From positions 1 to 23,721 of IMG/VR virus record IMGVR_UViG_3300032236_002080: a stretch of 23,721 nucleotides of DNA; one strand, written 5' to 3'. Position numbers and translations under genes: made by a program. The stretch comes from a virus. Below, piece by piece: positions 13,483 to 23,721 of the stretch; position 1 is the stretch's first letter, and the number at the start of each line of letters is the position of its first letter. The notes under the pieces were generated by a model. That model was not told the origin of the DNA. It searched no databases and worked only from the letters and a program-made list of their open reading frames with translations.

Positions 13483-14073
13483 ATGCACGAAAACGTTCCT
13501 GGCCAAATAACAGGCCATATTTTAATTAGAGACCTTGACACTGACCAGGTGTTGTTGGAAACACACAATGCCATAAACTGGGAAAATTTCAGTTTGAGTT
13601 TGGCCAATGTATTGGCCAATGAAAGTCATGGCTGGATACAAGAGATGGTTTTTGGCAATGGTGGAGCAACAGTAAGTGGCACAGGTGTGATAAGTTACAA
13701 GCCACCAAACATAATTGGTCAAAGCGCTAACCTTTACAATCAAACCTATTACAAGACTGTCAACAACAAAAGCAGCCTAGACACGGATCCTGTAAACAAC
13801 AAAACACAAGTGGCACATGTTACCGGCACAACTTACAGTGACGTAGTGGTCACATGCACTTTGACTCTGGGAGAGCCTGCTGGTCAAGAGGCTTTTGACA
13901 GCGCAACAACGCTGACTGGTGAATTTGTGTTCAATGAAGTGGGATTGCGCGCCTACAGTGAAAGCGGCGCCAATACAGGTTTACTACTGACCCACGCTGT
14001 TTTCAGCCCCATACAAAAAAGCCTCAACCGTCAAATTGAAATTGTCTATACCTTGAGACTTCAAACAGCGTAA
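13483..14073 (+). CDS. Virion structural protein (T4-like marine phage type), 196 aa
   Basis: This 196-residue, beta-rich protein resembles (from memory of the family) conserved structural proteins encoded next to fibre genes in T4-like marine phages. Recognisable parts are the N-terminal ILIRDLDTDQVLLETHNAIN, the central WIQEMVFGNGGATVSGTG and SANLYNQTYYKTV, and the C-terminal LLTHAVFSPIQKSLNRQIEI followed by VYTLRLQ. It has no signal peptide or transmembrane segment. The ATG has GAGGT 7 nt upstream. Position between the giant baseplate protein and the fibres suggests a baseplate-fibre connector or fibre-base role, which is inference. The exact function is not known to me. Confidence 0.8.
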   Translation: MHENVPGQITGHILIRDLDTDQVLLETHNAINWENFSLSLANVLANESHGWIQEMVFGNGGATVSGTGVISYKPPNIIGQSANLYNQTYYKTVNNKSSLDTDPVNNKTQVAHVTGTTYSDVVVTCTLTLGEPAGQEAFDSATTLTGEFVFNEVGLRAYSESGANTGLLLTHAVFSPIQKSLNRQIEIVYTLRLQTA

Positions 14074-14076
14074 ATA
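14069..14076 (+). promoter_or_regulatory. Candidate late promoter for the fibre block
   Basis: CGTAAATA keeps the TAAATA core of the T4 late consensus (6 of 8 positions). It ends 25 nt before the ATG of the 475-residue fibre. That spacing matches the better matches at 152 (24 nt) and 19357 (26 nt). It overlaps the stop codon of the preceding gene. It would separate the baseplate and fibre transcripts. Confidence 0.4.
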
Positions 14077-14101
14077 TTGAAAGCAGAGGAAACAGGCAAG
14101 C

Positions 14102-15529
14102 ATGTCTACACAAATTAAAAATTACGATGGCACAGTATTAACAGAACTGGCAACCGGCATCCTGGATATCACAAGCACCAGCTTGAACTTGCCAGGCACA
14201 GGTGTTCTCAATTATGGTGGACCAGTGCTGGATGACCTAGTGTGGATCATGCAGCATTTTTCTCGCAGCACAGCACCAGATCACGCTGTAAAAGGCCAAA
14301 TATGGTACGACACCACAGGCGGCATCCTGAAATTATATAACGGCACCAACTGGGTGGCCAGCGGCAGTATAATCAGTGCTGCCACAGAACCTGCAGGTCC
14401 TGTAAACGGAACCCTGTGGTGGGACGTGGGCAACAAACTGTTGAAATTGTGGAATGGCATTGGCTGGACGGTGATTGGACCTGCTGGCGCCGGGTTCTGG
14501 ACTGGTGCTGCAAACAATGCACCCGATGGCAATAATGTCCATAATCTGGGAAATATCACTAATAGATTCAACACGGTATACACTGTAAATACAGATAGCA
14601 CAGGAATCAGCAACCTGGCTGTGTTAAATTCGTCTGCCGTTAATGTTGCTTCTTTGACCACAACTGCCACAGCCACGTTGGCCAGCGCTGTGGTGCAAGG
14701 CTCGTTGAATTCCGGCAATATCATTGTACTGGGCAACATCAGTGTCACAAGTGACGTAATAGCTAGTGGCAATGGAAATTTTGGTGGAGCAGTGCTGGTA
14801 AATGGTAATTTCACTGCTGCAACTGTGGGCGTGGGTACAGCAGCAAACGGATTTTACAAACTAGATGTGGCAGGACCAGCACGCTTTACCAATGACATCA
14901 TAAACGAATACAATGGGCCTGTTTATCAATTCATGAGGGATGATGCTGCACCTCTGGACAGTAAAATGTGGGTTAAAGCTGTAGATGACAACGGAACTTA
15001 CAGTGAATACATTATTGATGATGCAAACAATCCTCTGCACATAAATTATGTAACACAGACAACAAGAACCGGCATTGTTGTGGGTAACACCACAGTTTAT
15101 GGATCCAATAACATCCCAGCATTGGTTATACAAGGAAACGGCAATATATCCATTCCAGTAGCCAATCGTGGCATTGTGTTTCAAGATGGCAGTTTCCAAA
15201 AATCAGCAGGTTCCGCAAGCATAGGGCAAAATGGCTGGCAAATATTGCCTAGCGGATTAATGCTGCAATGGGGTGTTGTGCAGATAACGGTGCCGGGAAC
15301 TTCTAGCACCTACAGTGGTAGTATTACATTTGCTCGTGCTTTTAGTTCTGCACCTTTTATTGTTACAGGAACACCACAAACTACAGCTAGTGGAGCCTGG
15401 ACAGAGTTAACCTGTCAGATTGCCTCATACACAACTACCGGAGCCAGTGTTTTTGGAGGCACTGCCAGTAGTGGCCAAGATGTAACAAATAATCCGGAAA
15501 TAAGCTGGTACGCGATTGGACAGGCATAA
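14102..15529 (+). CDS. Tail fibre protein with gp53-like C-terminal tip
   Basis: This is a 475-residue fibre. Residues 1-125 form the fibre-base module seen in marine T4-like phages: NYDGTVLTEL, then DLVWIMQHFSRSTAPDHAVK, GQIWYDTT, KLYNGTNWVASG, GTLWWD and LWNGIGWTVIGP. The middle is Ser/Thr/Val-rich shaft-like sequence, followed by YNGPVYQFMRDDAAPLDSK and a VFQDGSFQ segment. The last 100 residues begin GWQILPSGLMLQWGVV and continue ITFARAFSSAPFIV, the pattern of the gp53-like C-terminal domain of tail fibres. The next gene shares the N-terminal and middle modules but has a different tip. Likely role: host recognition, or a fibre on the baseplate. GAGGAA upstream serves as a slightly distant RBS. 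Confidence 0.85.
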   Translation: MSTQIKNYDGTVLTELATGILDITSTSLNLPGTGVLNYGGPVLDDLVWIMQHFSRSTAPDHAVKGQIWYDTTGGILKLYNGTNWVASGSIISAATEPAGPVNGTLWWDVGNKLLKLWNGIGWTVIGPAGAGFWTGAANNAPDGNNVHNLGNITNRFNTVYTVNTDSTGISNLAVLNSSAVNVASLTTTATATLASAVVQGSLNSGNIIVLGNISVTSDVIASGNGNFGGAVLVNGNFTAATVGVGTAANGFYKLDVAGPARFTNDIINEYNGPVYQFMRDDAAPLDSKMWVKAVDDNGTYSEYIIDDANNPLHINYVTQTTRTGIVVGNTTVYGSNNIPALVIQGNGNISIPVANRGIVFQDGSFQKSAGSASIGQNGWQILPSGLMLQWGVVQITVPGTSSTYSGSITFARAFSSAPFIVTGTPQTTASGAWTELTCQIASYTTTGASVFGGTASSGQDVTNNPEISWYAIGQA

Positions 15530-15538
15530 GGGTAAATC

Positions 15539-16999
15539 ATGACACTCAATATAAGAAATTACGATGGTAGCACTTTTATAACCATTCCCGATCAAACGCT
15601 TAATACCACAGCAGCCAGCATAGAACTGCCGGGTCGTGGATTACAGGCATACGGCACCGCAGTCAATCAAGATCTATTGTGGCTCATGCAGCATTTTGCA
15701 CGCAGCACACCACCTGATGCGCCGGTTGCAGGACAAGCCTGGTGGGACACCAGTTGTAATGTATGGAAAATATACACTGGATCAGAATGGATAGCAAGTA
15801 CAACAGTGACCAACGCCGGCAACGCGCCAATTGCTCCTGTTGAAGGCACATTGTGGTGGAATACCAGCCACGCACCTGCGCAATTGAACATTTATATAAA
15901 CGGTCAATGGCAATGGATGGGTCCACCGGGTTATGAATGGTGGAACAGCACTCAAAACAATATACCCTACACCAATCAATTTTATACCATTGGCAATGCC
16001 ACAGCGCAAATGCGAGAGGTGCACACCCAGGATCAGTTCACATATCGCAACAGCACAGTGGGTGGCATGCTGAGTGTAACTAATAGCAGCACTTTTGGCG
16101 GCAATGTATATCTGCAAAATAACGGACCCGTTTATCTTGGCTTGAGCAACAACAGCGCACCGCTAGACAGTAAAAAATGGTGGCGCAGTATTACCTCAAC
16201 TCGCTTAAATGAATATGTCACAACAGACGCCAATAGCAATCCAAATAATTGGCTGGCTGTGAATAGGATAGGCAATGTTGTCAGCAGCATTGAATTGGTA
16301 ACAAACACCAACAATGTTGCTGTGGTAGTGGATCAGGCTGGCAACGTAAACATTGTCAGTCCCGGTGCTTCATTGGTATTTCCCGATGGAAGTCATCAAC
16401 CTTATGCTGCATTTCACAGGACCTTGACCTATTATCAAAGCAATGTGTTTGTGGTTCCTCCTGACTGCACCCGTGCCCGTGTGAGAGTTTGGGGAGGCGG
16501 TGCCGGTGGCGGCGGCAACAACAGTTTTGGCAGCGCTGGCGGTGGTGGAGGCGGAGGATACGCAGAAACCACTGTGGTTTTGGTACCCGGAGCAAGCATT
16601 CCTGTAACAGTGGGCCAGGGAGGCTATGGTGGTGGCAACAGTGCTGTGAGCCTTAACGACGGTGGCAGCGGTGGCACCAGCAGTTTTGGTGTTTACATAA
16701 GCGCCACAGGCGGACTGGGCGGGCTGGGCACAGTAGCCGGCGGCGCAGGGAGTGGCGGCGGTGGCGGCGCTGGATATGGAGCCTTTGTGTTTGGTGCAGG
16801 CGGAAACGGTGGCGGTGGATTTACTGTGGGCCTCAGTAGTATTGGCGGACATGGTGGCAGTGGTGCCATGGGCGGCGGTGGCGGAAGCAATGGACTCTAC
16901 GCTGGTCCAGGAAGCTTTCCAGGAGGCGGCGGTGCAGGTGCCGCAAACGATGGACTAGGTGGATCAGGAGCCAGCGGCATGGTAGTGGTGGAATATTAA
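15539..16999 (+). CDS. Tail fibre/adhesin with glycine-rich tip
   Basis: This 486-residue paralogue of the preceding fibre has the same N-terminal module (NYDGSTFITIP, then DLLWLMQHFARSTPPDAPVA, GQAWWDT, YTGSEWIAS, GTLWWNT, YINGQWQWMGPPG) and the same middle module (NNGPVYLGLSNNSAPLDSK, then LVFPDGSHQPY). From about residue 300 (FVVPPDCTRARVRVWGGG) to the end it becomes a glycine-rich domain with many GGGGG runs, closing GASGMVVVEY. Glycine-rich tips of this kind occur in phage fibres. In phage S16 gp38, polyglycine helices form the receptor-binding tip, so direct host binding is inferred here. AAGGG precedes the ATG by 6 nt. The 3' half of the gene is GC-rich because of the Gly codons, which also produces spurious open frames on other strands. 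Confidence 0.88.
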   Translation: MTLNIRNYDGSTFITIPDQTLNTTAASIELPGRGLQAYGTAVNQDLLWLMQHFARSTPPDAPVAGQAWWDTSCNVWKIYTGSEWIASTTVTNAGNAPIAPVEGTLWWNTSHAPAQLNIYINGQWQWMGPPGYEWWNSTQNNIPYTNQFYTIGNATAQMREVHTQDQFTYRNSTVGGMLSVTNSSTFGGNVYLQNNGPVYLGLSNNSAPLDSKKWWRSITSTRLNEYVTTDANSNPNNWLAVNRIGNVVSSIELVTNTNNVAVVVDQAGNVNIVSPGASLVFPDGSHQPYAAFHRTLTYYQSNVFVVPPDCTRARVRVWGGGAGGGGNNSFGSAGGGGGGGYAETTVVLVPGASIPVTVGQGGYGGGNSAVSLNDGGSGGTSSFGVYISATGGLGGLGTVAGGAGSGGGGGAGYGAFVFGAGGNGGGGFTVGLSSIGGHGGSGAMGGGGGSNGLYAGPGSFPGGGGAGAANDGLGGSGASGMVVVEY

Positions 17000-17000
17000 A

Positions 17001-18032
17001 ATGGCAACGTGGGCAAGAGTAAGCAATGTGGAAGTTCGTGAAATAACGAACACAGATCCTGCAGGCAGGTTTATCAGCGATATCACTTGGATATCTGTTG
17101 TGCCAGGCAACGTTTTTGGTGGTGATCCTGCGGCAGTGTCCCCTAGATGGAGTTATACCAATAATATATTTTATCCGCCGCAGGGTGGAAATGCTGTGGT
17201 GTATGTGCAAAGCGGAGCACAACTGAGTAATATTGTCTCTTTTACTGGCAATGCATTTGTCAATGCAGGAACTGGACAAATTGATGACAGTTGCTGGTAT
17301 CCCCTGGCCACAGTAAATGTCAGCAGCACAAACGCCACCGCTCACTTTGTCAGCTACAGCAGTCATATTTTTGACCTTGCACTAAACATACCACCTCCCG
17401 GTGCTGGTGTTGTATATATCAGTAGTCCCATAAACAATTCATACGATGGTAGAGATTATGTCGGCGGAGCAGAAGCCACAAGTGAGCATAACGGAGCCTC
17501 TGATCCTGGTGGCAATAGCGGCGGTGGCAATAGCGGCGGGGGTGGCGGTACCGGTGGCGGAGGATGTTTTATAGCATCTACTCCTGTATTAATGATTGAT
17601 GGTAGTACAAAACCAATATCCAATATTTTACCTGGCGATATTCTCCAAGGCGATCAGGGACCTGTTACAGTGCTGTCTGTTCACAATCGCACCAACAATT
17701 ATGCCATGGTTGATTTTAATGGACTGGGGTATTGGATTACAGCTGAACAGGCTATGCTTACAGACCAAGGCTGGGGAGCATTTGATGTCGCACTACTACA
17801 ACAGCTTGAACCCCTTACATATCAGCAGTTGGTAATCCAAAACAATGGCAAACCTTTGGTCACTATTAGTGAAGGAATGACTTTGGCTACATGGAAAAAC
17901 CACAATATGGTATTTGAACAAGTAATTGGCAACGTCAATTATGCAACGATCCCTGTGGAAGTTTGGTGGCTTAGAGTGTCCAATGATGAACATTTCATTG
18001 CTAACGGAATAGTTGTTCATAACGCCAAATAG
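17001..18032 (+). CDS. Tail protein with C-terminal Hint domain, TxxH histidine replaced by Gln
   Basis: This 343-residue, two-part protein starts with a short tail-associated module (ARVSNVEVREI, then PRWSYTNNIFYPP, residues 5-60), followed by beta-rich sequence to about 160. A Gly/Ser linker (165-188) leads to a Hint (intein/hedgehog-type) domain at 189-341. Hint landmarks: catalytic-position Cys189 in CFIASTPVLMIDGS, PGD at 211-213, block-B region WITAEQAMLTDQGW at 245-258, and C-terminal FIANGIVVHN ending at His340-Asn341. Only Ala-Lys follows, so there is no C-extein nucleophile. The block-B histidine expected in TxxH is Gln250 (CAG, 17748-17750). Known Hint domains cleave or splice peptide bonds at their N-terminal Cys. 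Whether this one is active is open. It starts one base after the fibre stop and is followed by a paralogue. Confidence 0.85.
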   Translation: MATWARVSNVEVREITNTDPAGRFISDITWISVVPGNVFGGDPAAVSPRWSYTNNIFYPPQGGNAVVYVQSGAQLSNIVSFTGNAFVNAGTGQIDDSCWYPLATVNVSSTNATAHFVSYSSHIFDLALNIPPPGAGVVYISSPINNSYDGRDYVGGAEATSEHNGASDPGGNSGGGNSGGGGGTGGGGCFIASTPVLMIDGSTKPISNILPGDILQGDQGPVTVLSVHNRTNNYAMVDFNGLGYWITAEQAMLTDQGWGAFDVALLQQLEPLTYQQLVIQNNGKPLVTISEGMTLATWKNHNMVFEQVIGNVNYATIPVEVWWLRVSNDEHFIANGIVVHNAK

Positions 18033-18042
18033 GAATAGAATT

Positions 18043-19125
18043 GTGAACGTATATGCAAGAGTAAGTAACGGATTTGTGCGAGAAGTCATTTACAATGATC
18101 CTCAAGGGGACTATGTGCCTACATTGAATTGGGTGCAAGTAAGCAACAGTATTACCACAGGAGCAAACGTGTCCGGGGGCAATGTCTATGTTGTTCAGCC
18201 TCGTTGGTCTTATGATGGAGTAATGTTTCGTCCACCTCCACCTCCTATACCACTTCCCAAACCTTCAGGGCAGGCCACATACGTGGATAAATTCAGCTTT
18301 ACCGGACAAGGCAGTAATGTTTGGACAGAAATAGGCAACGTTGGCATCTTTGCTGATTTGAAAACAGTACACTTTATAAATTATAGCCTGGATATCTTTG
18401 ATGCAAGTTTAGTTGCCTACACACCTCAAAATACTCCACCTAACGGAAACACCAATGGAGGCACAGGTTATGGTCCTAATAGCGGTGGGGGCGGATCAGA
18501 AACAGCAGGAAATGCTGGTGATGCTGCACAAGCTGCACAAGCTGCACTCGATGTGTTAGGTGCGGTTGCTGCTAGTGTAGCAGGACAAGATGGTGAAACC
18601 GGCGGTAGTCCTGATATAGCGGGAGGTGGCACAGATGCCGGAGCAGGAGCAAGTGGCAAGTGTTTTATTGCAACCACTCAAATTACCATGGGGGATGGTC
18701 AACTTAAAGCCATATCTGATATATCTCCAGGCGAAATGATTAAAACAGATACAAATGAGACCGTTTCTGTTGTAAATGTCCTTGTGGATAAAGGAAATTT
18801 CAATTTGGTAAGTGTTAATAACACTGAAAGTTTTGTCACTGACGATCACGTTGTTCTAACAGAAAAGGGCTGGGGCACTGTTAATCCCACTGGGCTAGCT
18901 GCCAAAAATCCCGGTAGTTATCAAACTGTGTTGCAGGACAATGGATATAGGCCCCTCGTCCAAATTCAACAAGGTGTCTCCATAGCATTTTGGAAAAATA
19001 ATCAAATATCTTATGAGCCTATTGGACAAATCTCTGTTACACCGCATCGTGACATTACTGTATATTATCTAGTATTGGAAAAATCCAATAATTACATAGC
19101 CAACAATATCGTTGTTCATTCTTAA
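18043..19125 (+). CDS. Paralogous tail protein with C-terminal Hint domain lacking terminal Asn
   Basis: This 360-residue paralogue of the preceding protein starts at GTG 18043, with AGGAA (18031-18035) 7 nt upstream. Alignment with the paralogue (VYARVSNGFVREV against TWARVSNVEVREI) supports this start over an in-frame TTG at 18013. Modules: tail-associated head with PRWSYDGVMFRPP (53-65), a proline run (64-73), beta-rich sequence, a Gly- then Ala-rich linker (about 138-205), and a Hint domain at 207-360. Hint landmarks: Cys207 in KCFIATTQITMGDG, SPGE instead of PGD (228-231), intact TxxH as TDDH (266-269) followed by VVLTEKGWG, and C-terminal YIANNIVVHS. The usual final Asn is Ser360, immediately before the stop. 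N-terminal cleavage chemistry could remain; Asn cyclisation could not. Role in the fibre is inferred. Confidence 0.83.
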   Translation: MNVYARVSNGFVREVIYNDPQGDYVPTLNWVQVSNSITTGANVSGGNVYVVQPRWSYDGVMFRPPPPPIPLPKPSGQATYVDKFSFTGQGSNVWTEIGNVGIFADLKTVHFINYSLDIFDASLVAYTPQNTPPNGNTNGGTGYGPNSGGGGSETAGNAGDAAQAAQAALDVLGAVAASVAGQDGETGGSPDIAGGGTDAGAGASGKCFIATTQITMGDGQLKAISDISPGEMIKTDTNETVSVVNVLVDKGNFNLVSVNNTESFVTDDHVVLTEKGWGTVNPTGLAAKNPGSYQTVLQDNGYRPLVQIQQGVSIAFWKNNQISYEPIGQISVTPHRDITVYYLVLEKSNNYIANNIVVHS

Positions 19126-19134
19126 GGAAAACAC

Positions 19135-19350
19135 ATGGCCTACTATATCAGAATTAGAAAACTCGACCCAATGACCAGCACAGTGGTGCAACAAGTCAGC
19201 AACATCACCATAAATGGCTGCCAAGCGGGCACAGTTTTGGGAGTTCAGGGAACTGGACTGTTTAGTTATTCCTTGGAAATTGCAGCAGATCCCGGAGAGC
19301 AGGTTACCTGTGCAGGAACAAGTTTGGTTGCTTTTAGCACCCGACTGTGA
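19135..19350 (+). CDS. 71-residue protein ending the Hint cassette
   Basis: ATG at 19135 is 9 nt after the Hint protein's stop, with AAGGA 6 nt upstream, so it is well placed for translation. The product starts MAYYIRIRKLDPMTSTVV and is probably beta-rich. It has two cysteines (Cys29, Cys59) and no obvious membrane segment. I do not recognise the family. The position makes it the last gene of the fibre/adhesin block, because a late-promoter motif follows directly. It may be a small accessory or chaperone of the preceding tail proteins, which is inference from location only. Confidence 0.7.
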   Translation: MAYYIRIRKLDPMTSTVVQQVSNITINGCQAGTVLGVQGTGLFSYSLEIAADPGEQVTCAGTSLVAFSTRL

Positions 19351-19702: not shown

Positions 19703-19729
19703 CTGAGTTATCATTAGTGATAAACTCAG
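19703..19729 (+). promoter_or_regulatory. Hairpin overlapping the thyX ribosome-binding site
   Basis: CTGAGTTATCA (19703-19713) pairs with TGATAAACTCAG (19718-19729), giving 11 pairs with one bulged A and loop TTAG. The 3' arm covers the first two bases of the thyX Shine-Dalgarno AGAGGT (19728-19733). There is no U-tract, so it is not a classical terminator. RNA processing or translational control of thyX is possible. Confidence 0.5.
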
Positions 19730-19737
19730 AGGTAAGT

Positions 19738-20658
19738 ATGACAACTCAAGACCAAATACGAAACGATCAGCGATACAGACCAGTCTTGGATTCGGGCTTT
19801 ATTGGCCTAATTGATGCCATGGGTGATGATGCCAGCATCGCCCGAGCGGCCCGAGTAAGCTATGGCGAAGGCACCAAGACAGTGAGAGAAGACACTGGAT
19901 TGTTGAGATACCTCATGAAGCATGATCATACCAGTCCTTTTGAGATGGTGGAGTTTTTGTTTCACATCAAAATGCCCATCTTCCTGGCACGGCAGCATGT
20001 GCGGCATCGCACAGCCAGCATGAATGAATACAGCGGCCGTTACAGTGAAATGAGTGCAGAGTTCTATATTCCCGAAAAGAAACGCATGCAGGGACAAGAC
20101 ACTGTCAACAACAAACAGGGCAGTGCAGATCCTCTCAGCAATTTTGATGCAACGGAGGTTTGGGAAACCATACAACATGCCAATGTGGAAAGTCTGCATG
20201 CCTACAAAGATCTCTTGAAGGCCCGGCCCCACAGCGGCAACATCAGCCTGAGTCGAGAATTGGCACGTATTGTGTTGCCAGTCAGCAACTATACGGAAAT
20301 GTATTGGAAGATGGATCTCAAGAATCTGCTGCACTACATTGGTTTGAGAATGGACTCACACGCACAGTGGGAAATTCAACAGTATGCCCAATACATGGCA
20401 GAGTTTGTCAAGCAGAGATGCCCCATCACTTGGCAGGCTTTTATGGATTACAAATATCAAAGCATCAAGATCAGCCGTGGAGAAAGTGCTCTCTTGGTTG
20501 ATGCTGTGGCTCACAGCAACGTAAATGAATGCTCAGTAAAAGCCAGTATGCGAGCACTTGTGGAGCAGCATGGTGATGAAAAAACATTGTGTTCTCATTA
20601 TGGTATATCACCCAAAGAGCTGCTGGAATTTGTCAGCAAACTGAAATTCCGTATGTGA
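19738..20658 (+). CDS. thyX: Flavin-dependent thymidylate synthase ThyX
   Basis: This 306-residue enzyme methylates dUMP to dTMP using methylenetetrahydrofolate, FAD and NADPH, feeding phage DNA synthesis. The ThyX signature RHRTASMNEYSGRYS is at residues 89-103, preceded by KHDHTSPFEMVEFLFHIKMP (61-80), which belongs to the fold. The C-terminal half has the family's SRELARIVLP and WKMDLKNLLHYIGLRM. The ATG at 19738 is chosen because AGAGGT sits 4 nt before it; an in-frame GTG at 19717 lies inside the upstream hairpin. Length is at the long end for the family. It shares the late-type transcript of the 100-residue gene and ends at a strong terminator. Confidence 0.96.
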   Translation: MTTQDQIRNDQRYRPVLDSGFIGLIDAMGDDASIARAARVSYGEGTKTVREDTGLLRYLMKHDHTSPFEMVEFLFHIKMPIFLARQHVRHRTASMNEYSGRYSEMSAEFYIPEKKRMQGQDTVNNKQGSADPLSNFDATEVWETIQHANVESLHAYKDLLKARPHSGNISLSRELARIVLPVSNYTEMYWKMDLKNLLHYIGLRMDSHAQWEIQQYAQYMAEFVKQRCPITWQAFMDYKYQSIKISRGESALLVDAVAHSNVNECSVKASMRALVEQHGDEKTLCSHYGISPKELLEFVSKLKFRM

Positions 20659-20660
20659 TG

Positions 20661-20687
20661 AAAAAGCCCGGCAATGCCGGGCTTTTT
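20661..20687. terminator. Bidirectional Rho-independent terminator
   Basis: AAAAAGCCCGGC (20661-20672) and GCCGGGCTTTTT (20676-20687) form a perfect 12-bp stem with loop AAT. The A-run and T-run give U-tracts on both strands. It lies exactly between convergent stops: thyX ends at 20658 and the leftward 208-residue gene ends at 20689. Confidence 0.95.
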
Positions 20688-20688
20688 A

Positions 20689-21315
20689 TTAGGCTGTTTG
20701 TTTTGTGGATTTTTTGGTTTTCTTGGGCGCCAAATCCGGCATCAATTGATATGCCTGCTGCCGGCGTGCGGCGGCATCAGCCTCCAACATTTCTGCCATG
20801 ACAATCAAATCACGGGCCTTGCTGGCTCGAGTTTCTTCGTTCATGACTTCGGCGTTGTGAGCATGTGGATTGAAGTTGCTCATGGCCTGTTGTGCAATGC
20901 GTGCTTCGTCGGGGTCCATGTCGGCAAGGTCGCTGATGTTGGTTTCGTTGCGGCTGGCCCGGATGGCGTTGAGAACGTCCTTGAGTGGCCACTTGGTGCC
21001 CTTGTTGGGAGTCAGTGTGACCAAATCAACAGGAACCTTTTGCAGGCGCCCGCTTTGATGGAATTTGGTCAGCAAGCTGGTGTTGCTGCCGTCGGGGCTT
21101 ACTCGGCGATCCAGGATGTCTGCCAGGTTTTCGCTTTGTTGTGCATCATCGCTGTCTATCAGTCGGCGCATGGTTTGTTGGAACATGTCAGGCAAGCTGT
21201 CGGTGTCAATTACCAAACAGTTGCCCTCGTCTCCCGGCAAGCTCATGAAAACCACAGCCACCTTGTTGCCGGTGTTGTTCATTACGCCTATGTGGCGTGT
21301 CATTCCTTCAAACAT
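20689..21315 (-). CDS. Conserved phage protein of unknown function, 208 aa
   Basis: The start is ATG at 21315 with AGGAG 7 nt upstream; it overlaps the preceding gene by 8 nt (ATGTTTGA). A longer in-frame start at 21393 would overlap that gene further and has no comparable support. The N-terminal part (MTRHIGVMNNTGNKVAVVFM, then DTDSLPDMFQQTM, LADILDRRVSPDG and VPVDLVTLTP) resembles a protein often seen in uncultured T4-like phages, to my memory without an assigned function. The C-terminal third is helical and charged (MDPDEARIAQQAM, then RDLIVMAEMLEADAAARRQQ) and ends in a lysine-rich tail, APKKTKKSTKQTA. No enzyme motif is visible. It is the last gene of the leftward operon, right before the terminator. 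Confidence 0.85.
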   Translation of the reverse strand: MFEGMTRHIGVMNNTGNKVAVVFMSLPGDEGNCLVIDTDSLPDMFQQTMRRLIDSDDAQQSENLADILDRRVSPDGSNTSLLTKFHQSGRLQKVPVDLVTLTPNKGTKWPLKDVLNAIRASRNETNISDLADMDPDEARIAQQAMSNFNPHAHNAEVMNEETRASKARDLIVMAEMLEADAAARRQQAYQLMPDLAPKKTKKSTKQTA

Positions 21316-21589
21316 TTTGTGCTCCTTGCTGTTCCTTTGTGGCTGCATCTGCACCCTGCAAAAATTTGTTGATCCGATCCCAGCAGTTACCAATGGCAGC
21401 CAGCTCTGATGCTCGGAAGGCTCCTCGGGTGGTAGCCAAATCTATAATATGGCTTGCCATGCGAATATCATCAAGTGTAATGGTGGGCTGTGGTTCAGCG
21501 GGCTGTGGTGGTTGCGCTGCTGATTCAAACGTGTTTAACCCCACCGGTCCCGCAGGACCAAATGGGGATTGTGCTGTAAATGTGTTCAT
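21308..21589 (-). CDS. Small conserved T4-like phage protein, 93 aa
   Basis: ATG at 21589 has GGAGGA 6 nt upstream, a strong RBS; longer in-frame starts would run back through the HNH gene. The N-terminal 40 residues are Pro/Ala/Gln-rich and probably flexible. The rest is a compact helical part, TLDDIRMASHIIDLATTRGA then FRASELAAIGNCWDRINKFL. This DL...IDLA..RGAF...E...G..Y/W..I..FL pattern is familiar from small conserved proteins of cyanophage-type genomes; function unknown. It is translationally coupled to the 208-residue gene by an 8-nt overlap and separated from the HNH gene by a 53-nt gap holding an inverted repeat. Confidence 0.83.
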   Translation of the reverse strand: MNTFTAQSPFGPAGPVGLNTFESAAQPPQPAEPQPTITLDDIRMASHIIDLATTRGAFRASELAAIGNCWDRINKFLQGADAATKEQQGAQNV

Positions 21590-21604
21590 TTTGATCCTCC
21601 GACC

Positions 21605-21644
21605 AAATACTAATGATCTCTCGGGGAGATGTCTATTAGTATTT
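21605..21644 (-). repeat. Two-tier inverted repeat between HNH gene and 93-aa gene
   Basis: AAATACTAAT (21605-21614) and ATTAGTATTT (21635-21644) are perfect 10-bp reverse complements. Nested inside, ATCTC (21616-21620) and GAGAT (21626-21630) form a second stem around TCGGG. The outer arm overlaps the TAA of the HNH gene. There is no U-tract afterwards, so processing, transcript stabilisation or a binding site is as likely as termination. Confidence 0.6.
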
Positions 21645-22197
21645 AATCGTGGGATCCCTGTACGGTCAATAATTCTGCAGGCCAGGGCAAATACGGTGTC
21701 CAGGAACGATGCGGAATCACCATGGGCCTCTGACAAGCCACTGATACCAAACCATAATAATCGGGTTTTACTGGCTTGATGCGCGGCTTGAGTGTGGTGC
21801 GATGCCCTTTGGCACTGTTGCACTTTGTGCAGCAACTCACCACATTCTCCCAGCGAGTCACACCGCCCTTGACACGCGGAACAACATGGTCCACAGTCAC
21901 AGTGTTGAGGTCCAGATCGCATGAACAATACTGGCAACGGAAATGGTCACGCAACAGCAGGTTATATCTGCTGTATCTGATGTTGTTCTTCTTTTTTACA
22001 TAGCGATTGCACACCATGACACTGGGCACAGGCCAACTTTGACGGCTGCTGCGGACACTCCACTCGCTGTAATATTCCACAGGGCGTGCCTCGTCATTGA
22101 ACCACGCCTTCATGCTGTCTTGCCAGTTGTAGCTGCTGATGGGAATCAGACTGAGAGGGGAATAATCCTGATTTAAAATCAGTGTGTGTCCAGCCAT
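21643..22197 (-). CDS. HNH endonuclease
   Basis: This 184-residue protein has the HNH/McrA-type beta-beta-alpha metal nuclease core. A zinc ribbon pair Cys88/Cys91 (RCQYC) comes first, then VDHVVPRVKGG with Asp103-His104, then RWENVVSCCTKCNSAKG with Asn118, Cys123/Cys126, Asn127 and Lys130. The N-terminus (HTLILNQDYSPLSLIPISS, residues 4-22) is the usual pre-domain of the bacterial and phage HNH subfamily with this layout. Such proteins nick or cut DNA and may be free-standing homing-type or degradative nucleases. It is free-standing here, with no intron or intein around it. The RBS is weak. A sigma70-like promoter lies about 35 nt upstream. Confidence 0.92.
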   Translation of the reverse strand: MAGHTLILNQDYSPLSLIPISSYNWQDSMKAWFNDEARPVEYYSEWSVRSSRQSWPVPSVMVCNRYVKKKNNIRYSRYNLLLRDHFRCQYCSCDLDLNTVTVDHVVPRVKGGVTRWENVVSCCTKCNSAKGHRTTLKPRIKPVKPDYYGLVSVACQRPMVIPHRSWTPYLPWPAELLTVQGSHD

Positions 22198-22211
22198 AAT
22201 ACACCGTGGGG

Positions 22212-22403
22212 TTAATGTTGTTGTGAGTACATTATACTATAGGTCGTCATATAGCACAACGACAAACTTGCCCAAAAAACAGTCTGAAACACTGCTAAAC
22301 TCAGGGTAAAACTATCATGAATCTGGAAGCACAGATTAGCACAGTTTCCAGCAACTGGAAGGCTAATAACAAGACTCAACAGTATCCAAAAATACCCGGG
22401 CAT
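22212..22403 (-). CDS. 63-residue hydrophobic protein, possible late membrane protein
   Basis: The open frame fits between the MazG-like gene (stop ends at 22422, gap 18 nt) and the HNH gene (gap 14 nt) in the same direction. AAAGG is 6 nt before the ATG, and a perfect late consensus TATAAATA lies 26 nt before it. Two hydrophobic segments are visible: GYFWILLSLVISLPVAG (3-19) and TLSLAVFQTVFWASLSLCY (33-51). The N-terminus could also be a signal peptide, with Cys21 after LPVAGN. A holin-like or other small membrane role would fit late expression but is inference. No family is recognised. The codon range also holds an antisense 30-codon frame (22317-22409, plus strand) with a poorer start. Confidence 0.5.
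   Translation of the reverse strand: MPGYFWILLSLVISLPVAGNCANLCFQIHDSFTLSLAVFQTVFWASLSLCYMTTYSIMYSQQH
22231..22259 (-). promoter_or_regulatory. Candidate host-type or middle promoter for the HNH gene
   Basis: On the minus strand TATAAT (22231-22236) is a perfect -10. A partial -35 TTGTGC (22254-22259) lies at 17-nt spacing. TGTGCTATA (22250-22258) also matches 7 of 9 positions of the T4 MotA box, 13 nt from the -10. Transcription would start roughly 25-30 nt before the HNH ATG. Confidence 0.45.
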
Positions 22404-22421
22404 GGCTAACCTTTGTTGCGA

Positions 22422-22715
22422 CTAGCAATTATTTATACCATAATGTGTCAAAAACCAGGAGTATTTCAGTAACTTGGATTTCTTGCGTGTGGCAGCCTCT
22501 TGCACAACCTTGGGGTCAATACCCAGCTGGTCCACTGCAATGTCAATAATTGCCAAGACATCACCCAGCTCTGTTGCCAGGTGTTCCAGATTGCTGTGAT
22601 CTGAGTTATACCAGGAGTCTGGACCCCAGCGGTGGATTTTGGCCACCGCTTGAATCACCTCGCTGCATTCCTCTGCCAGGATAACCAGGGCCTCGTCTGT
22701 GCCATTGCTTATCAT
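22422..22715 (-). CDS. MazG-like nucleotide pyrophosphohydrolase
   Basis: This 97-residue, single-domain MazG-type protein has the metal-binding helices: residues 14-25 carry AEECSEVIQAVA (the EExxE pattern) and residues 47-60 carry ATELGDVLAIIDIA (ExxD). These enzymes hydrolyse (d)NTPs to monophosphate and pyrophosphate. Phage versions are thought to adjust nucleotide pools or alarmone-like signals, which is known for the family but not shown here. The ATG overlaps the kinase stop by 4 nt (ATGA), so the two are co-translated. The last codons contain the late-promoter motif of the downstream 63-residue gene. The C-terminal tail, about 25 residues after the domain, is not distinctive. Confidence 0.88.
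   Translation of the reverse strand: MISNGTDEALVILAEECSEVIQAVAKIHRWGPDSWYNSDHSNLEHLATELGDVLAIIDIAVDQLGIDPKVVQEAATRKKSKLLKYSWFLTHYGINNC
22430..22437 (-). promoter_or_regulatory. Perfect late promoter consensus upstream of the 63-aa gene
   Basis: The minus strand reads TATAAATA, an exact T4 late consensus, inside the last codons of the MazG-like gene. It ends 26 nt before the ATG at 22403. This is the only exact copy noticed in the window, and its spacing is close to that of the three plus-strand candidates. Confidence 0.6.
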
Positions 22716-23182
22716 GCCACAATGATCCTGTCAAAGCCTTCAGCCTCTGTGGGAGGCTCAAGCTGGCTGGCCATGCCCTGAACAATGTGCGCCGGGATGG
22801 TTTTGCCGGGTCGGCTTGCCAGTCGACGCTGGAGTTCAGCTGGTTCGGGAGTGGCAAAGAACACTGCCACCTTGGTGTAGGTATCAGGAACCTGGGCCAG
22901 CTTGCTCGCTCGGCTCTTGGCCGTTACATTTGTTTGGTCCCATATAATATCCCGGTCTGTCTTGATCGCGACCCGCAGTTTGTCGTGCATTTCGGCTGTG
23001 GCGCTCTTGATCTCTTTGGAGAACACTTCACTGTAGGTCTTGCCTTGTGATTCAGCGCGGCGATCGATAATTGCATCAGTGCTAATCACCACAGTGTTTG
23101 ACCAGTCAAACACTGAATGCTGGGCAATCCAAGTGCTCTTGCCGCTTGCGGGCACGCCTATAAGCATATACAGGGTGGGCAT
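22712..23182 (-). CDS. P-loop kinase, polynucleotide-kinase-like
   Basis: This 156-residue P-loop protein has Walker A GVPASGKST (residues 9-17, with Lys15 and Ser16 as in T4 Pnk), Asp36 in STDAIID as the likely counterpart of the T4 Pnk general base Asp35, WDQTNV as a later motif, and a C-terminal arginine-rich lid RRLASRPGKTIP. It corresponds to the kinase half of T4 polynucleotide kinase. The phosphatase half is absent, giving about half the length. It may phosphorylate 5'-OH ends of nucleic acid or a small substrate; the AAA_33-type family is broad. The gene starts 2 nt after the aldolase stop with a GAGAG-type RBS and overlaps the MazG gene by 4 nt. A 10-bp perfect hairpin lies in its early codons. 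Confidence 0.85.
   Translation of the reverse strand: MPTLYMLIGVPASGKSTWIAQHSVFDWSNTVVISTDAIIDRRAESQGKTYSEVFSKEIKSATAEMHDKLRVAIKTDRDIIWDQTNVTAKSRASKLAQVPDTYTKVAVFFATPEPAELQRRLASRPGKTIPAHIVQGMASQLEPPTEAEGFDRIIVA
23092..23115. repeat. 10-bp perfect inverted repeat inside the kinase gene
   Basis: CAGTGTTTGA (23092-23101) and TCAAACACTG (23106-23115) are perfect reverse complements around CCAG. In the kinase mRNA the stem falls around codons 23-30. It may be a chance result of coding sequence or an mRNA structure near the start of the gene. Confidence 0.5.
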
Positions 23183-23184
23183 GA

Positions 23185-23721
23185 TTATTCTCTCGCTGTG
23201 GGGTTTATGAATACCTTGGCATTATAGCACAACAACACAACTTCGCAACAGTGATTTAGCCTTTCAATGTGACTCCAGGCCGTCCAGGGGTCGTCTGCCA
23301 TGGCCACAACACCGTGTTGTTTGATACCCACAATATCAAAATCCGAACTGCCATCATTATAAATCTGCATGCATTGTGCCACTTTGATGCCCAGTTCGTT
23401 TGTCTGGGCTGGCAACACAGGAACACTGGGGCCCACACGGGTATAGATCAGTTCACCAAACTCTGCTGCAATGCGCTGTAGATCGAAACCAGCCATCATG
23501 GCAGCCACAATGTGAGTGGCATGCACATGGATAACCCAGCGCTCGGCGGTATTGATGGTTCTCTGCAATGCATAATGCAGGGGCAGTTCGCCGCTGGGTC
23601 GCAACTCTTGACCCTGGAACCCCTGCATGATCTGGGCACAGGAGTCCACAATACCCAGGGACATGGGCTGAATAGGCACGTTGATGAGATGATCCTCAGT
23701 CATGATGTTTTTCCGCACCCC
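23185..23721 (-). CDS. Class II aldolase/adducin family protein (5' end outside window)
   Basis: The frame runs open to the right edge. The visible 179 codons start within the family pattern after the usual TP(S/T)G (GVRKNIMTEDHL). The GTG at 23718 and ATG at 23703 are therefore probably internal, with roughly 40 N-terminal residues missing. Active-site landmarks of FucA-type enzymes are present: Glu in RPSGELPLH (E73-like), the zinc pair HVH in VIHVHATH, and the third His in GIKQHGVVAM, followed by the helix DPWTAWSHIERL. Fuculose-phosphate aldolases and relatives split or dehydrate sugar phosphates. The retained Glu favours an aldolase-like rather than AraD-epimerase-like site; the substrate is unknown. 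It heads the visible leftward operon, 2 nt before the kinase, and is uncommon in T4-like phages. Confidence 0.87.
   Translation of the reverse strand, partial: GVRKNIMTEDHLINVPIQPMSLGIVDSCAQIMQGFQGQELRPSGELPLHYALQRTINTAERWVIHVHATHIVAAMMAGFDLQRIAAEFGELIYTRVGPSVPVLPAQTNELGIKVAQCMQIYNDGSSDFDIVGIKQHGVVAMADDPWTAWSHIERLNHCCEVVLLCYNAKVFINPTARE

Follow-up and report, generated by a model that had tools for sequence, protein, structure and literature searches.

C-terminal Hint domains related to bacterial intein-like domains on two paralogous proteins of a phage tail-fibre cluster

Two adjoining genes behind a phage tail-fibre cluster each encode a protein that ends in a Hint domain, and each of these domains has lost a different catalytic residue. 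This raises the question whether the pair forms a matched device or represents two differently degraded copies of an optional module, and whether either copy can still process its own protein.

Layout of the two proteins and their genomic setting

The window is the whole 23,721-nt stretch of IMG/VR record IMGVR_UViG_3300032236_002080 and represents a fragment of a tail phage. It carries a gp25 baseplate gene, a gene for a 3,106-aa protein and a tail-fibre cluster (13483..16999, plus strand) with a phrog_11259 protein and two fibre proteins, which was recognized by profile matches and synteny and sets the gene slot of the two Hint-encoding genes, termed p1 and p2 here. A gp6-like protein of the window is related to counterparts in RaK2-like jumbo phages and cyanophages. 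The tail association that the sequence-only reading had assigned to p1 and p2 has their gene position behind the two fibre genes as its sole basis; this position suggests that both proteins would be located at the virion tail. Downstream of p2, positions 19135-19350 encode a 71-aa protein of unknown family, which is 65-83% identical to proteins downstream of the head genes in two related loci (L098, L099). The remaining part of the window (19717-23718) carries the gene for the thymidylate synthase ThyX, followed by minus-strand genes for an HNH endonuclease, MazG, an AAA_33 kinase and a class II aldolase-like protein.

The p1 gene (17001..18032, plus strand) encodes 343 aa, and its extent is supported by the open reading frame and by the full-length homology of p2. 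A head of about 143 residues (17001..17430) is followed by a Gly/Ser/Asn-rich linker (17431..17564), which ends in GGGG and is predicted to be disordered (pLDDT < 50), and by the Hint domain (residues 189-343, 17565..18029), which was identified by sequence, family profile and model. Cys189 (codon 17565-17567) opens the domain, Gln250 (codon CAG, 17748-17750) stands at the position of the block B His, and His340-Asn341 (18018-18023) is followed by Ala-Lys and the stop codon.

The p2 gene (18043..19125, plus strand) encodes 360 aa and starts with GTG. This start is preceded by an AGGA site and is also backed by the orthologue in L098; it is preferred over TTG 18013 of the open reading frame list, which overlaps p1. 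Here the head (18043..18450) is followed by an Ala/Gly-rich linker (18451..18660), in which residues 158-180 are predicted from sequence and model to form an Ala-rich helix, and by the Hint domain (residues 207-360, 18661..19122), recognized by the same three lines of evidence as in p1. It retains Cys207 (codon 18661-18663) and His269 (codon 18847-18849) within the motif TDDH (266-269) and ends with His359-Ser360 (19117-19122), with the Ser codon TCT at the Asn position directly before the stop codon. Thus, the twin architecture of head, Gly/Ala-rich linker and C-terminal Hint domain, as well as all residues named in the sequence-only reading, were found as described there.

The two proteins are homologous from end to end (29% identity, E 3e-39), and therefore the heads are paralogues too; identity is about 35% for the heads and about 35% for the Hint domains. 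Furthermore, a full-length viral homologue of p1 (A0A6J5KSY2, 48% identical) is named 'Hint domain containing protein'. As it stems from another phage, the combination of head and Hint domain appears, from sequence comparison, to have persisted.

The Hint fold and its class

AlphaFold predicted both Hint domains (residues 189-343 and 207-360) with a pLDDT of about 97, a confidence that reflects an alignment in which most relatives are intact, and most of head and linker with a pLDDT below 50. The top structural match of both Hint models was BIL2 of T. thermophila BUBL1 (6Y75; Z 19.1), which superimposes with an rmsd of 1.9 over 138-139 residues (VIA). Next matches (Foldseek, VIA) were the gp41-1 and DnaB inteins, the solved BIL (bacterial intein-like) domain 2LWY (Z 16.2 for p1 and 16.8 for p2) and the hedgehog domain (1AT0; Z 14.9 and 15.2). 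The proposed Hint fold was thus borne out by the comparison with intein, BIL and hedgehog structures, since both models match all three with Z of about 15-19; as judged from these models, its presence in p1 and p2 is beyond chance. At the sequence level the Hint-family profile matched 2LWY with an E of 8e-24. Single-sequence Pfam searches with p1 and p2 gave Hint matches that fell short of the curated cut-offs, the best with an E of 1e-3 to 1e-4, and p1 exceeded the model cut-off of TIGR01443 (intein_Cterm).

The assignment of both domains as degenerate derivatives of A-type BILs is well supported. A-type BILs, represented by 2LWY from Clostridium thermocellum and 6Y75 from Tetrahymena, are the best match of p1 and p2 in structure and profile and share with them the Hint fold, the N-terminal Cys nucleophile (Cys189 and Cys207), the absence of a nucleophile at +1 and a location on variable accessory host proteins. 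They end in His-Asn (PMC4031507), which is present in p1 (within the block G motif VHN) but not in p2, so that p2 as such is not filed as an A-type BIL. At the +1 position p1 carries Ala342, and the Hint domain of p2 coincides with the protein end and has no +1 residue. Unlike A-type BILs, p1 lacks the block B His (TAEQ instead of the TxxH motif that is kept in p2), p2 lacks the Asn, and neither has a meaningful C-terminal flank or, at block F position 4, the polar residue that is usual there. B-type BILs show no likeness to intein block G (PMC4031507), and p2 was rejected as a member because its block G is kept (IANNIVVH) apart from the last residue.

Class 1 inteins such as gp41-1 and DnaB share the fold and blocks A, B, F and G with p1 and p2. 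In contrast to them, the two Hint domains lie at the extreme C-terminus instead of interrupting an essential enzyme at a conserved site, and there is neither a Cys, Ser or Thr at +1 nor a C-extein (HNAK-stop and HS-stop); this assignment was rejected, and the absence of a splicing nucleophile noted earlier for both proteins holds. A search for Pfam-type domains found no homing endonuclease domain in p1 or p2, and recent seeding by a mobile intein was rejected on this ground. The Hedgehog autoprocessing domain (1AT0) resembles p2 as a C-terminal Hint domain which needs only the N-terminal thioester step, for which p2 retains Cys and TxxH. Nevertheless, p1 and p2 stop at the Hint domain and thus have no sterol-recognition region, no acceptor is known for them, and their sequences are nearer to BILs, so a Hedgehog Hog domain was rejected as well. 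Phage Hint domains ending in '..VHNK' (L005, L010, L013, L036, L060; A0A6J5KSY2) share the Gly-rich linker, the CFIAxT start and the position at the C-terminus or in tandem on tail-type proteins with p1 and p2. They are mostly intact, however, and often occur several times per polypeptide, unlike the arrangement of one Hint domain on each of two adjoining genes.

Relatives with and without a Hint domain

Syntenic loci (80) were collected with the neighbouring phrog_11259 protein as query. The closest, L098, has the same gene order as the window and a phrog_11259-type gene with 87% identity. It encodes both heads as adjoining 160-aa proteins without a Hint domain, one matching p1 (L098:13502-13981, 56%) and the other p2 (L098:13981-14460, 50%); the latter shares with p2 a 5-residue insertion and a 10-residue deletion relative to p1. 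A single 160-aa head without a Hint domain is present in L099/L100, and a p1-type head in L102 is 69% identical, the loci L101 and L102 stopping at contig ends. No Hint remnants were found behind the Hint-less heads of L098 and L099, and no further Hint domains in the contigs of the closest relatives (G001-G005); among 37 syntenic records, many of them fragmentary, there was one further match. Since the nearest head orthologues (L098, L099/L100) lack it, the Hint domain is an optional add-on to heads of this type in this phage line. By the same comparison the head duplication predates the split from L098, with heads persisting without Hint domains; as p1 and p2 are about equally similar in their heads and in their Hint domains, the latter may have been gained after the duplication or lost in the relatives. 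The heads of L098b and L099 carry Gly-rich tails at their C-terminus, and in sequence these closely resemble the product that cleavage of p1 or p2 ahead of the Cys would leave.

Homologues with both residues in each copy, which the sequence-only reading had considered a sign of a local artefact, exist in part: intact Hint domains occupy the same gene slot in related fibre clusters (L012, L013, L028, L035), and the nearest head orthologues are Hint-less. Neither a Pfam family nor a PHROG match better than E 0.039 was obtained for the heads. Single-sequence searches of IMG/VR with p1 or p2 gave no confirmed relatives, searches of phage GenBank entries weak Hint matches only, and the pair as query against genome contigs nothing.

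Profile scans of IMG/VR yielded 78 unique near-complete Hint domains. These scans preferentially picked up CFIA or ..VH(N/S) motifs, and domains whose C-terminal end is incomplete were not counted, which biases the residue numbers towards intact domains: Cys1 is present in 75/78, the block B His in 71/78, the penultimate His in all 78 and the Asn in 77/78, p2 being its sole loss in this set. The residue after the Asn is Lys in 54 domains and Arg in seven; these 61 of 78 include cases in which it is the last residue of the protein. In about 12 other open reading frames the stop codon comes only a few residues after the Asn, and most of these end precisely in '..VHNK'.

Two to four Hint domains within one polypeptide were found in L010, L013, L017, L036, L060, L062, L066, L074 and L079. 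Hint domains on phage tail proteins are thus common, as single copies, as pairs or in rows of up to four, and the supposed novelty of a tandem arrangement on phage structural proteins was not upheld, since tandems within a polypeptide are frequent in IMG/VR. The search of metagenomic phages for the same split of residues revealed one other array resembling p1 and p2, namely L033 (copy 1: Cys, TDSN, HNK; copy 2: Cys, DH motif, no HN). HN is likewise missing from the final copy in L071/L072/L081; terminal copies can apparently lose the Asn, though most retain it. Losses in these tandems (L033:847-1941, L071, L072, L081) are unequal, the first copy lacking the block B His (L033) or Cys1 (L071 group).

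Some further arrangements were noted. One to four Hint domains lie within very large tail-type proteins (L060:523-9579, L017/L018, L079, L082/L083), with a DPL(A/S)QTF extein motif 0-2 residues behind the last or only Hint domain, as if there were one fixed insertion site. A second Hint-like type at the C-terminus (L006, L008, L010, L013, L035, L063) has a CFIAGT-like start, mostly an SG(T/S)HMVKE-like motif and no C-terminal HN, and is sometimes located directly behind an intact VHNK Hint domain. In L059:3-953, VHNK and a Gly run are followed by a different C-terminal module starting with CVIATHAVNSGAF; here, too, C(F/V)IA comes directly behind a Gly-rich stretch. The comparison of the Hint family with genome contigs detected the '..VHNK' type in bacteria, on proteins of secreted or surface type; among these, L185, L186 and L189 (Proteobacteria MAG, Pelagibius, Oligoflexia MAG) are apparently secreted or pilin-like.

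Self-processing Hint domains would thus be an optional, repeatedly used module on phage tail proteins. No treatment of Hint domains in phage tail proteins was found among open papers, and those searched do not address what a phage adhesin gains from such a domain; as some sequenced relatives carry it and others lack it, they offer a natural comparison for its role. This pattern of presence and absence is a useful new fact, while the tandem arrangement and the 'complementarity' have turned out less remarkable than they seemed at first.

Residue losses and possible self-processing

Both copies have departed from the family at more than the two positions noticed originally. Block F position 4, which is Asn in 61/78 members, is Trp323 in p1 and Tyr342 in p2, each unique among the 78, so that the polar residue is gone in both. 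The two Hint domains are sisters in the tree (support 100/98) on branches of 2.1 and 2.4, about four times as long as that of the nearest relative L010 (0.54). With equal odds assumed for five catalytic positions, two independent single losses would hit different positions about 80% of the time. Due to the long sister branches and the common loss in block F, the losses look like overlapping, accelerated decay, and 'complementary' describes no more than chance would give. The idea of a designed split was not supported; that of differently degraded modules stood, with the block B His gone in p1 and the Asn in p2.

We lean, cautiously, towards the reading that p1 and p2 are duplicated tail-cluster proteins with an optional, BIL-derived and partly decayed Hint domain, of which p2 is the likelier to cleave itself and p1 is largely inert at its N-junction. 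On our analysis, at most one of them, namely p2, probably still cuts itself free. BILs without a +1 nucleophile yield mainly cleavage products (PMC7664689). In p2, Cys207 and the TxxH His would still allow a thioester to form at the Lys206-Cys207 bond. Hydrolysis of this thioester, or its attack by an external nucleophile as happens in Hedgehog, would release head and linker as a 206-residue product. The loss of the Asn would cost nothing because nothing lies beyond the C-terminus of p2. In p1 the thioester step would be slow or absent because the block B His is lost and the small Gly188 precedes Cys189; at most, Asn341 might cyclize and drop Ala-Lys. With Lys at -1 and TDDH, p2 is therefore the likelier thioester former and head releaser. 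Nevertheless, p2 may be inactive as well, since block F position 4, a helper of N-terminal reactions, is altered.

That both domains are catalytically dead and retained as folded C-terminal domains, for instance as a linker-borne cap or binding module, is rather unlikely. In favour of it, the fold is predicted with very high confidence although two usual catalytic positions are lost per copy, but Cys1, the Thr and the penultimate His are retained in both proteins, the Hint-less orthologues need no cap, and among the Hint domains collected none is known as one. We also consider it unlikely that both are active through compensation, the Hint domain being a removable C-terminal propeptide and the heads maturing to the Hint-less form of the relatives. 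Inteins can do without the block B His or the penultimate His when other changes compensate (PMC7664689), the Tko CDC21-1 case, as far as it is cited in PMC4031507, points the same way, and L027, L030 and L033 of another clade have Asn at the block B His position. However, a bulky -1 residue is what is able to compensate (PMC6333167) and p1 has the small Gly there, and the polar block F residue is lost in both copies.

A cooperation by transfer of the thioester from one protein to its partner or the cell surface, with covalent linkage as the outcome, would fit adjoining paralogues of one cluster with losses at different steps and the similar split in the L033 tandem. It is very improbable, as different loss positions are expected by chance, no acceptor was identified and the heads of close relatives manage without any Hint domain. 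Hardly any weight is given to a sequencing or assembly error in the metagenomic contig as the source of one or both losses: Gln250 (CAG) is one base away from His (CAC), but Ser360 (TCT) is two bases away from Asn (AAT) and thus not explained by a single read error, the exchanges to Trp323 and Tyr342 come independently on top of these, neither reading frame is broken, and the long branches indicate general divergence. A wider proposal, that the C-terminal '..VHNK' Hint domain is a general device of tail phages which releases or covalently hands over adhesin-like heads via a thioester, with p1 and p2 as a specialized pair of non-cleaving partner and reactive donor, respectively, appears quite doubtful to us. 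Against the favoured reading of optional, partly decayed domains stand the p1 homologue A0A6J5KSY2 with its Hint domain and the modelled fold: both copies evolve fast and yet seem to have preserved it completely, which points to a role that it still has and not to simple decay.
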